A stretch of 64,000 bases of DNA, from contig JAPKDG010000002.1 in assembly GCA_028822645.1 (NCBI GenBank), positions 1 through 64,000 of the forward strand. Direction: 5' to 3'. Below, piece after piece: positions 26,430 through 49,537 of the stretch. The position numbers and the translations under genes are program-made. Source of the stretch: Longimicrobiales bacterium (lineage in GTDB: Bacteria > Gemmatimonadota > Gemmatimonadetes > Longimicrobiales > Gaopeijiaceae). The notes under the pieces were generated by a model, which saw nothing but the letters and a program-made list of their open reading frames with translations, searched no databases and was not told the DNA's origin. Positions within the stretch are counted from its first letter, which is position 1, and every line of letters starts with the position of its first letter.

Positions 26430-26840
<411 letters not shown>

Positions 26841-26847
26841 CTGACTT

Positions 26848-26922
<75 letters not shown>

Positions 26923-46159: not shown

Positions 46160-46696
46160 TTAATTCAAATACTGAAGTGCACGGTCAAGATTCCACCGAG
46201 AAATGAAGGAAGGTGGCCATGTTCCTTCATGATACCCATCAATCAAGAGTTGGGATTCTCGGAGTGCAGTTTCTGCGACCTCTGGTGAAATCCACTCATT
46301 TTGTCTCGCCAGGACAAACTCATCCTCATCCAGAACAGTGGCTCTCCCATTTAAATCAATCCAGATATCTAAGAAGAGATCAGTGGTTTCCCAGACAAGA
46401 GGCGACTGATATTGCACGGGTGTGATGATATTAGCGTAGATCCCTGTAAAATCCCCATCAGCTTGGTGGAACAACCCTATGTCATGCCAGGTGTCTGGGA
46501 AGGTAAACCATATTATTTTCGAACCTGTTTCTAAGATAATTTTACCTTGTATAATCAAGGGTGTATCCATAACCAAATCAGTGGAAAGGGTTATGTCGGC
46601 TTCGGCTTCCTTAGAGATCAGATATTGTTTATAAGTCTGTTTTCGATTCGGTGGCCTGAAGTAGTGCAGAGATATCAAAGGTGATTGATTCGACAC
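46160..46696 (-). CDS. DUF402-domain protein (NtdP/FomD-like fold)
   Basis: A 178-residue protein of the DUF402 family. The recognisable core is YANIITPVQY, WETTDLFLDIWID and VLDEDEFVLARQ, with conserved Tyr, Asp and Glu residues that bind metal and phosphate in nucleoside di/triphosphatases of this fold. A phosphohydrolase role is plausible; the substrate is unknown. The start is a GTG at 46696, directly abutting the stop of the XdhC-type gene, which suggests translational coupling. It is the last gene of a molybdenum-enzyme maturation group. Confidence 0.8.
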   Translation of the reverse strand: MSNQSPLISLHYFRPPNRKQTYKQYLISKEAEADITLSTDLVMDTPLIIQGKIILETGSKIIWFTFPDTWHDIGLFHQADGDFTGIYANIITPVQYQSPLVWETTDLFLDIWIDLNGRATVLDEDEFVLARQNEWISPEVAETALRESQLLIDGYHEGTWPPSFISRWNLDRALQYLN

Positions 46697-47029
46697 CTAG
46701 CTACGGAATACTGCTTCCACAAATACTTCCATCGTGCCACCACAGACTGCTGGACTCAGGGATAAAATGTCCTCTGTTAGATCAACATGGACAACTTGTG
46801 GAGTGCCAGACGCAATAACTTCATGAGCTGCTGCAATGACCTCTCCTTCTCCGCATCCTCCACCGATTGTGCCGACAATGTCGTAACCTGGATCGACGAG
46901 CATTTTAGCGCCTATCTTACGAGGTACAGATCCCTTAGTCGCTACTATTGTGGCTACTGCGACGGTTCTTCCTTGATTTGTTTTCTCTAAAATGGCTTGG
47001 TGAATATTTTGAATTGTCGTTTCTTTCAC
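46697..47029 (-). CDS. XdhC/CoxI-type protein, N-terminal domain only
   Basis: A 110-residue protein matching the XdhC_CoxI domain: VAVATIVATKGSVPRKIGAKMLV, GTIGGGCGEGEVI and the final AVCGGTMEVFVEA. Full XdhC proteins have this domain followed by a Rossmann domain and insert sulfurated molybdenum cofactor into xanthine dehydrogenase-type enzymes. Here only the first domain is present, and a longer XdhC-like protein is encoded just upstream. The start is a GTG at 47029. It is ten bases downstream of the longer gene. Confidence 0.85.
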   Translation of the reverse strand: MKETTIQNIHQAILEKTNQGRTVAVATIVATKGSVPRKIGAKMLVDPGYDIVGTIGGGCGEGEVIAAAHEVIASGTPQVVHVDLTEDILSLSPAVCGGTMEVFVEAVFRS

Positions 47030-47039
47030 GATATAAACC

Positions 47040-47888
47040 CTATCCTTTCTTAAAAAATCGATTGAAAATATTCTCTTTCTGGCTCAAAGGCATTCCATCT
47101 CCTTTTCTAGATAGTAGCACAAGCTCTGCCGCTACTGAAATGGCGATTTCTGTAGGTGTTTCCGATCCGATATCCAGTCCCAAGGGTGCCCTGATGCGAG
47201 CAATTCGCTCTGGGTCGAGTTGATCGTTTACTAGTTGGATGAATGCTGCTCGAATACGACGTCGGCTCCCAATCATACCAATATAGCTAGGTTCTACTTG
47301 GCTCCGCAGTAAAAACCGAAGACATTCGAAATCGTATTTGTGACCCCTAGTTACAAGTACGATACAGCTATTTTGGTCAATGGTGATATCCTTGAATGGT
47401 CTCATGAAATCAACTTTCATGAGACGGTCAGCTTTTGGGAAACGTTTTTTGGTTACAAATTCTTCCCGGTCGTCAATTACCGTGACGTTGAATCCTAACA
47501 TTGCGGTGATAGAGGAGAGTGGCTGAGCTATGTGTCCAGCCCCAACGATGATTAATTCGGAAGGGGGATGATGTGCTTCCACGAACAGTTTGTACTTTTG
47601 CCCGGACTTTACAGTCAGGTCGCGGAATCTGTCTCCTTGAGGACTGGGTGATTCTAGAGCTTCCTTTGCCAACTCCATAGCTTGATTGTTTAAGTCGTTT
47701 TCTTGAAACCTTCCTATTTTTACAAGTCCTCCGTGTTTCAATTTCTTGATTGCAATTCGCTGGCCTAACACAGTAGAGGGTCCGTGAGTGATCAGAACTA
47801 AGGCTATTGCTTCGCCCTCTTTTTTTGCTGCAACAATTTTCTCGGCTGCTGTGGTCGCACTTAATGGTAATTCATTTTGTTCGATCAT
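47040..47888 (-). CDS. XdhC-family protein (molybdenum hydroxylase maturation)
   Basis: A 282-residue protein. Residues 1-100 look like a degenerate XdhC_CoxI domain (ALVLITHGPSTVLGQRIAI), and residues 115-265 are the Rossmann XdhC_C domain (LIIVGAGHIAQPLSSITAMLG, VTVIDDREEF, CIVLVTRGHKYDFECL, YIGMIGSRRR). The last block ends with GLDIGSETPTEIAISVAAEL, the family C-terminus. It would bind the molybdenum cofactor for sulfuration and insertion. It overlaps the MobA-like gene by four bases (ATGA). No xanthine or CO dehydrogenase subunit is nearby. Confidence 0.88.
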   Translation of the reverse strand: MIEQNELPLSATTAAEKIVAAKKEGEAIALVLITHGPSTVLGQRIAIKKLKHGGLVKIGRFQENDLNNQAMELAKEALESPSPQGDRFRDLTVKSGQKYKLFVEAHHPPSELIIVGAGHIAQPLSSITAMLGFNVTVIDDREEFVTKKRFPKADRLMKVDFMRPFKDITIDQNSCIVLVTRGHKYDFECLRFLLRSQVEPSYIGMIGSRRRIRAAFIQLVNDQLDPERIARIRAPLGLDIGSETPTEIAISVAAELVLLSRKGDGMPLSQKENIFNRFFKKG

Positions 47889-48451
47889 CTCGCACTGAAC
47901 CGGGCACGATATTCTTTGGGGAAATGTCGACGGTAAGTTGCAAGGTCATCGATATCGATGGTGACACCATTGTCATCAATATCGATTAAGTTCGCGTTTG
48001 CAAGGTTTTTGATGACCACTGTACGGGCTCCTTCAGGCAGATCATCCTCAAGGAGCTCTTGGAATAGGTCTCTATGGAAGATAACAGGATGTCCCTTTTT
48101 TCCTTTAAAGGTAGGCAGAGTAACGGGAGCTCTTATTGTTTTGAAACTACTAACCAATGTTTGGATTGTCTGAACAGTAACCAAGGGATAATCGACTGGG
48201 CAAAATAATACTCCAGAAATTTTGGGATTGAGGTGGGCTATAGCTACTTGAAGAGACGATATGGGGCCATTTTTAGGGTTTGTGTTGAGGATCACAGTTC
48301 CACCTGCTTGTAATGTCTTTGCAGCGATAGGTCCGTGTTCGTCTGGCAAACAGACTAAAATGTTTTCGCATCCTCCTCTTTTCAGAGTAGATATCATATG
48401 CTCTAAGAAAGTGCGGTTTCCTACCTTAAGCATTGGTTTGGGCGTGCCCAT
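47885..48451 (-). CDS. MobA/MocA-like nucleotidyltransferase
   Basis: A 188-residue NTP-transferase domain, best matched to molybdenum-cofactor cytidylyl/guanylyltransferases. MGTPKPMLKVGNRTFLEH is the end of the nucleotide-binding loop, and GVLFCPVDYPLV holds the metal-binding Asp. Unusually, the start of the loop (AVIPCCGKSARMG, cf. LAAGxSxRMG) is encoded in the same frame upstream of this first ATG, at 48484-48449, with no ATG, GTG, TTG or CTG before the in-frame stop at 48575-48577. The protein therefore begins at an unusual codon, has a frameshift or has lost its loop. It heads a group with two XdhC-type genes. Confidence 0.78.
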   Translation of the reverse strand: MGTPKPMLKVGNRTFLEHMISTLKRGGCENILVCLPDEHGPIAAKTLQAGGTVILNTNPKNGPISSLQVAIAHLNPKISGVLFCPVDYPLVTVQTIQTLVSSFKTIRAPVTLPTFKGKKGHPVIFHRDLFQELLEDDLPEGARTVVIKNLANANLIDIDDNGVTIDIDDLATYRRHFPKEYRARFSAR

Positions 48452-48559
48452 ACGAGCGGACTTTCCACAACAGGGGATTACCGCCCATACCGAATTGGTG
48501 ATTCTCTCAAATTCCGAGCGATAGTCTGCTTTGTGGATTGGGATCCCCCTGCTATAGAA

Positions 48560-48598
48560 AAGGGCTCGAGGAATCTATACTTATCTTCCAGAGCCCTT
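48560..48598 (-). terminator. Rho-independent terminator of the coiled-coil lipoprotein gene
   Basis: AAGGGCTC (48560-48567) pairs with GAGCCCTT (48591-48598), extended inward by GGAA/TTCC. On the minus strand the stem is followed by TTTTCTATAG. It sits 30 bases after the stop of the gene ending at 48628. It lies about 75 bases ahead of the MobA-like coding frame, so that gene needs its own promoter in between. Confidence 0.7.
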
Positions 48599-48627: not shown

Positions 48628-49401
48628 CTAAAATTTAGGCCTAGACTTGGCGTTTTCTCTGGTTAGACGTATTGGGCCAAGCTCTTCTGAAATGGAGACA
48701 GGGTAGTTCCAATAGAGTTCCGAGTAAGCTTCTTCTAATGTTGCCACTACCCAATAGTTGCTTCCTTCTTTGACTTCAAAGATAGTGCTTCCTTGGGCAT
48801 TGGTAGTGTCGTAAAGAATCTCCCCTCCCGCCTGTTTTTGATGCATTGCCAGGACTTCGTTGACATTAGCAAAGGCCTCATCTCCCCACTCTTGACGTAG
48901 CAGTCTGCTCTCTTGTTCTGCTGCAATCGATGCTTTTTGTAGGGCGTCGAATCGGTTGAATGCTGCCGTGTTTGATCTGTCCAATCCGTTGTATTCAGCT
49001 TCTAAATCTTGGAAGTCAGAGAAGAGCAGGCGATATTGCGCTTGCCCTCTGTTTAATCCTTCTAACGCGGTTCCTAAAGTCTGGAGAGAGTCACGGAGAA
49101 CACCCCACCTGGCTTCGGCGTTACGCCATTCTTGTTGTGCTTCTGCAACGTCATTTACTGCCTGTAGGACTGAATCTGGGATCGGAGGTTCTGGACGGGC
49201 AGCAGCAGCAGTAAGTGAATCAAAAATAGCGTCTCGGTCGAAAGGGTACATTCGTATTTCAAGGTCGCTAATTGGGGTAACTACAGTTCCTGCTGTTGCA
49301 TCCTCTGAACTTAGTTCAGCAGAAATTACAACTGGGATAGGACCACACCCTGAAACCAGTGCAGCCAAGCAGGTTATAGCTAAAAGGTTACTTACTCTCA
49401 T
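48628..49401 (-). CDS. Coiled-coil lipoprotein of unknown function
   Basis: A 257-residue lipoprotein: leader MRVSNLLAITCLAALVSGC with Cys19. After a short beta segment (LEIRMYPFDRDAIFDSL), residues about 75-175 are charged and helical (AQQEWRNAEARWGVLRDSLQTLG, QASIAAEQESRLLRQEW), likely a coiled coil, then a beta-rich C-terminal domain. I do not recognise the family. GGAG seven bases before the ATG at 49401 chooses this start over an ATG four codons upstream. It has its own terminator. It may be a periplasmic spacer or anchor, which is speculation. Confidence 0.7.
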   Translation of the reverse strand: MRVSNLLAITCLAALVSGCGPIPVVISAELSSEDATAGTVVTPISDLEIRMYPFDRDAIFDSLTAAAARPEPPIPDSVLQAVNDVAEAQQEWRNAEARWGVLRDSLQTLGTALEGLNRGQAQYRLLFSDFQDLEAEYNGLDRSNTAAFNRFDALQKASIAAEQESRLLRQEWGDEAFANVNEVLAMHQKQAGGEILYDTTNAQGSTIFEVKEGSNYWVVATLEEAYSELYWNYPVSISEELGPIRLTRENAKSRPKF

Positions 49402-49537
49402 GTCCAACTCCATTTTTATCTTAAATGCTCGATCGATAACATCGATCTCAGGTCACCGAAAATAACTAATGTCAATTTTAGATTCTCTTAGTAGACAATC
49501 TAGGTTATCCAGGGTATCTCTGGGAAGTGTTAGGAGT

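Follow-up and report, generated by a model that had tools for sequence, protein, structure and literature searches.

The 64,000-nucleotide stretch of DNA analysed here (the window) carries on its minus strand a gene for a MocA-like NTP transferase, and this gene raises a simple question: where does its translation start? Past an in-frame stop codon (TAG, 48577-48575), the frame runs through 41 sense codons (48574-48452) before it reaches an ATG at 48451. The initial annotation, whose count of 42 codons included the stop, had claimed that this stretch is free of ATG, GTG, TTG and CTG, and that the nucleotide-binding loop of the family, VWAVIPCCGKSARMG, lies ahead of ATG 48451 in the same frame as the downstream protein; both observations were borne out. 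The codons ahead of this ATG encode VWAVIPCCGKSAR, which in an AlphaFold model forms the first strand and the loop after it, so that the nucleotide site would be missing if they were left untranslated. The same annotation had offered an unusual start (ATT or ATC), a frameshift involving the out-of-frame ATG at 48488, or a lost loop as possible explanations, and had suggested a comparison of homologues as a check.

The start region in congeners and more distant relatives

The window genome (G000; 2.04 Mb in 99 contigs) was compared with related genomes, 45 of 59 of which, including G000-G002, gave a match to the protein at E <= 1e-15; 27 of the 42 others became loci L006-L032. Within the genus the comparison comprises three genomes of different species, with an 82%-identical protein in the metagenome-assembled genome Gemmatimonadetes bacterium UWMA-0339 (a contig of G001) and a 69%-identical one in G002. 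All three congeners retain the loop and are without a usable canonical start. At locus L003 (on the same contig as L004) there is no canonical start in frame, and at locus L005 the one canonical codon in frame is a TTG that precedes the matched part by 25 codons, lies upstream of the Shine-Dalgarno (SD)-like run described below and has no SD-like run of its own (-1.9). By contrast with the genus, each of the 27 fetched relatives (L006-L032) has at least one in-frame ATG, GTG or TTG upstream of the loop. The replacement of the common AAGx by CCGK in the loop, also pointed out initially, holds in all three congeners, while the 27 relatives outside the genus have CSGS (L006), ACGL (L008) or, in the rest, CAGx or AAGx. 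In one of these relatives (L022, from G004, at about 1110-1182) the MocA-like gene has an out-of-frame ATG near the expected start, and the sole in-frame canonical codon in the stretch read is a GTG 21 codons upstream; this start region may reflect either an error or another unusual start.

Nucleotide changes between the window and L003 (NG86) indicate how the different parts of the frame have been constrained. Over the 14 codons of the loop stretch, dN was 0.03 and dS 0.80 (1 non-silent and 5 silent changes), as compared with 0.12 and 0.80 over the remaining 186 codons and 0.23 and 0.61 over a 16-codon extension at the N-terminus, which appears to be only weakly constrained. For the loop in L005 the picture is less clear, with few changes to count (dN 0.14 and dS 0.39 against the window; 0.10 and 1.21 against L003). 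The 17-18 codons that precede a Trp codon ahead of the loop are poorly conserved in L005, and amino-acid conservation is therefore no marker of the start.

To gauge how rare such a frame is, orthologs were paired by blastp (E <= 1e-15, identity >= 50%) between 767 kb of G002 and, on the G000 side, the window and a further 293 kb; of the resulting 169 pairs, 51 lie in the window. A script flagged 31 rows in which the two members have no canonical codon in common close to where the alignment begins, and 7 of these run off the end of a contig or stretch. The flagged rows were judged by eye from the alignments, a weakness of this count, with DNA alignments covering 8 window sites (5 among the 31); among those that could be assessed, infC and the MocA-like gene alone were without a canonical start in G000. 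In the remaining rows, either the gene has its own canonical start further upstream, or the two members have one in common some codons further in, or the row represents an RNA gene (RNase P, tRNA). The RNase P RNA is of class A (26460-26922, plus strand), and 2 nt separate it from the tRNA gene immediately downstream.

A candidate AUC start behind a Shine-Dalgarno-like run

Aligned DNA from the three species places an ATC codon (48536..48538, minus strand), in frame in all three, at a constant distance from a purine-rich run, AGGGGG (48545..48550, minus strand), that ends six nucleotides ahead of it: the region reads AGGGGG-ATCCCA-ATC CAC in the window, ACGGAG-ATCTAA-ATC CAC in L003 and AGGGAG-ATCCCA-ATC ACC in L005. 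Since the 3' end of the 16S rRNA was not found (a 16S match was obtained in one of four genomes, covering positions 9-873 only), a standard anti-SD sequence was assumed in computing duplex energies. The best octamer at normal spacing (offset -13) scored -9.4 kcal/mol in the window, -6.6 in L003, where the run is of moderate strength, and -7.9 in L005, values equalled at 0.9%, 4.1% and 1.8%, respectively, of 6000 random window positions. For orientation, 18 hand-picked gene starts in the window gave SD-like energies from 0 to -10.3. Of the in-frame ATC, ATT and ATA codons common to the three species, ATC 48538-48536 alone has an SD-like energy of -6.6 or stronger in each. L003 and L005 do have stronger SD-like octamers, located among the codons of the loop, 50-55 nt further downstream. 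In L003 an in-frame TAA stands immediately 5' of the ATC, and the frame therefore starts at this codon or later in that species. An earlier ATC (48544-48542), which abuts the purine run, was considered as well and rejected because the codon that follows it in L003 is this TAA.

All three congeners thus combine the two features by which a start discriminated by initiation factor IF3 can be recognised, no usable canonical start and a common AUN codon that follows an SD sequence at normal spacing. On this comparative evidence we consider AUC 48538-48536 to be a real, conserved, non-canonical start of a working gene, with a probability of roughly 0.8. A scan of the site for promoter consensus sequences found nothing, and a search against Rfam gave no match up to E 0.1. 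We do not claim that the start is sequestered by an RNA fold: single-sequence folds vary between the species, and the covariation term of a consensus fold was unfavourable (+1.13), compensatory changes being seen in 3 of its 53 pairs.

Translation might instead begin closer to the loop, at a near-cognate codon such as ATC 48502-48500, the GTA, GTC or ATC before the Trp codon, or the Ile codon before a Pro. Many relatives could begin 3-10 codons ahead of the loop, and the poor conservation of the extension in L005 would suit such a start; however, the codons at the first two of these sites differ between the window, L003 and L005 (ATC, ATC, GTC and GTA, GTC, ATC), with SD-like energies of -3.5 kcal/mol or weaker. 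The Ile codon is ATC, ATA and ATC in the same order, with SD-like energies of -3.1, -5.6 and -7.8, but it has no good SD in the window, and initiation there would cut into strand 1 (residues 17-22 of the model). We regard a start nearer the loop as distinctly improbable. A loss of the loop, with translation from ATG 48451, has in its favour that this is the first canonical start and that the ATG is found in all three congeners, yet its Met belongs to an RMG motif and is nearly invariant in an alignment of 20 sequences, the product would be left without strand 1 and loop, and the codons ahead of it change mostly silently, albeit with few changes in all; the chance of this is very slim.

An upstream start combined with a frameshift or with readthrough of a stop could draw on the out-of-frame ATG (48488-48486) or on the in-frame TTG of L005. 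That ATG, whose own frame runs into a TAA 20 codons on, is nevertheless missing from L003 and L005, which have GTCTGG or ATCTGG instead, and L003 has the TAA right before the ATC. Moreover, the ATC and the Trp codon are separated by 17, 17 and 18 codons in the three species, and the sole length change between ATC and loop is one codon (3 nt), all of which speaks for a highly improbable event. As for an assembly or read error that removed a normal start, one or more of the genomes were assembled from metagenomes and the window genome is in 99 contigs, but the genomes of three different species agree, and an error is therefore very unlikely indeed. Among the explanations put forward initially, the frameshift and the lost loop are hence disfavoured, and the unusual start is supported and can be refined to ATC 48538-48536.

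The enzyme, its operon and a missing neighbour

Read from the proposed AUC, the gene (47885..48538, minus strand) encodes a protein of 217 residues, in which ATG 48451 corresponds to Met30. The product matches PF12804 (NTP_transf_3) with 113 bits, above the gathering cut-off of 27 bits. It is named MocA-like only, because its score against TIGR03310 (MocA; 128.7 bits) is under the curated cut-off of 186.45 bits. It also falls below the cut-off of NF045665 (DVU_1551 family NTP transferase; 140.9 bits against 315, over profile positions 2-189 of 359), and the MobA models of NCBIfam give 38.7 bits at most. The AlphaFold model, built on the 20-sequence alignment, has a mean pLDDT of 92; strand 1 occupies its residues 17-22 and is followed by the loop (48446..48490, minus strand, for strand and loop together). 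Relatives in the PDB, by sequence and by fold, include Rv0371c (among the top hits) and a Sulfolobus homologue.

Three genes follow on the same strand. The ATG of a gene for an XdhC C-terminal domain (47040..47888; PF13478, 145.8 bits) overlaps the stop codon of the MocA-like gene, an overlap not kept in L003; the XdhC_CoxI N-terminal domain is encoded separately (46697..47029; PF02625, 87.8 bits), and a DUF402 gene (46160-46696) ends the operon. XdhC is thus split into two genes, with that for the C-terminal domain ahead of that for the N-terminal domain, and the same order is seen in the relative G005. The DUF402 product has weak scores, below cut-off, against models for FomD and NtdP. FomD is a cytidylyl-2-hydroxypropylphosphonate hydrolase, and the DUF402 product could perhaps be a nucleotide-ester hydrolase beside a nucleotidyltransferase. 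The window genome has two matches to MoCoBD_1. Upstream of the MocA-like gene lies a lipoprotein-like gene (48628..49413, minus strand) with no Pfam match. Between the two, a stem-loop with a short T run (48560..48598, minus strand) is common to the three congeners, with 12 consensus pairs that are mostly invariant; some 10 nt separate its end from the purine run. It probably serves the lipoprotein-like gene as a weak terminator, although a scan for consensus terminators did not flag it.

The gene order in G005 (lipoprotein-like, fadJ-like, MocA-like, XdhC C-terminal, XdhC N-terminal, DUF402) suggests how a canonical start might have disappeared. There, the fadJ-like product has 746 residues with ECH_1, 3HCDH_N and 3HCDH domains, and the ATG of the MocA-like gene (11583-11581) sits within the end of the fadJ-like gene. 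A FadJ-type C-terminal motif ends at or near the MocA-like start in 13 of the 27 relatives (L006-L032), as confirmed with Pfam in G005 only. In the genus of the window the fadJ-like gene is absent at this place, and G000-G002 have only separate pieces, open frames of 262-319 residues that match halves of it. Since the gene is missing here in the three genomes of the genus, the old start was probably lost together with it. A possible remnant of fadJ in the N-terminal extension was inspected by eye, and is too short to claim. The history we propose is that in this genus, with its genomes of about 2.0 Mb, the old start would have gone with the fadJ-like gene, after which the AUC behind the purine run may have taken over as the start.

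Parallels with infC and with other non-canonical starts

The gene infC encodes IF3 itself and is autoregulated. In all three congeners it reads AAGGAG-ATCAAG-ATC AGC, and the open frame ahead of the conserved motif contains no ATG, GTG or TTG, from which we infer an AUC start of infC in these species. Its layout, GGAG-ATCNNN-ATC, is that of the MocA-like gene, an SD sequence, six bases and ATC, with the best SD octamer at the identical offset of -13. Across the family, infC is present in 32 of 33 genomes, and 31 of the 32 loci were readable, 28 of them outside the genus. Because 17 of these 28 have no ATG, GTG or TTG within 22 codons (or back to a stop) upstream of the motif, initiation of infC at AUC or AUA is probably common in the family; most of the 17 have an ATC, ATA or ATT a few codons ahead of it. 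In the remaining 11, a canonical codon occurs at some point within the same stretch. At one locus (L055, in G016) the infC match carries one in-frame TAG, and a second infC match lies elsewhere in the same genome.

We propose that AUC 48538-48536, six bases past the purine run, would initiate a 217-residue enzyme with strand 1 and NTP loop intact, as a weak start at the head of a MocA/XdhC maturation operon. Since IF3 disfavours AUC, we expect a low output that responds to IF3 activity, as may hold for infC with the same layout. A broader reading, which we advance tentatively and think rather unlikely, is that in this lineage AUC would provide a low-output start gated by IF3 in no fewer than two genes, infC and the one that opens a molybdenum-hydroxylase maturation operon, the second case having arisen by loss of a coupled upstream gene along with the old start. 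If this were true, maturation of a cofactor enzyme would track IF3 activity or growth state. The value of the case lies in its being common to three species, in its plausible origin and in the internal comparison that infC offers in these genomes; the literature searched yielded few native genes other than infC with a non-canonical AUN start. A gene caller restricted to ATG, GTG and TTG would truncate the protein ahead of its active-site loop, and enzymes in little-studied lineages could therefore be mis-annotated as broken.

Among the known non-infC cases is pcnB, which encodes polyA polymerase in E. coli, a member of another phylum; Binns and Masters (2002), to judge by the title, appears to deal with this case. 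AUU, AUC and AUA serve as initiation triplets that IF3 discriminates, unlike AUG, GUG and UUG (PMC4611024), E. coli infC and pcnB have AUU starts (PMC4245954), and S. aureus infC has an AUA start (PMC13009471). Other S. aureus genes described in the latter paper are cvfC1 (AUU), ccpN (AUA) and citZ (AUA); these starts gave about 10% of an AUG reporter in poor medium, with ccpN reaching up to 30% in rich medium, and are accompanied by an extended SD and by conservation, for cvfC1 among Staphylococci and for ccpN with B. subtilis (PMC13009471). An engineered AUC is the subject of PMC10303841. We found no report of an AUC start on a MocA gene in the non-subscription literature covered; related cases are possible in PMC13068326 (start-codon change in Listeria), PMC10158994 (codon preference of IF3) and PMC9845219 (chloroplast non-AUG starts). 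The kind of start is already known; within the reach of these searches, the gene, its codon and what appears to be an origin through gene loss are new.

In its domain and surroundings the present gene is like that of MocA, the molybdenum cofactor cytidylyltransferase (an NTP_transf_3 domain, adjoining XdhC genes, MoCoBD_1 genes in the genome), but its product scores under the TIGR03310 cut-off and has CCGK rather than AAGx. It would share with E. coli pcnB a start disfavoured by IF3 on a native gene other than infC, and differs in codon (AUU in pcnB), in function and in phylum. The S. aureus genes cvfC1, ccpN and citZ likewise have non-canonical starts, which are documented by ribosome profiling or reporters, whereas the AUC start proposed here is drawn from sequence and belongs to a gene of other function. 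With infC the MocA-like gene has in common, by sequence, an AUC after an SD sequence, at equal spacing and in the same genomes, the difference being that its product is a cofactor-type enzyme.
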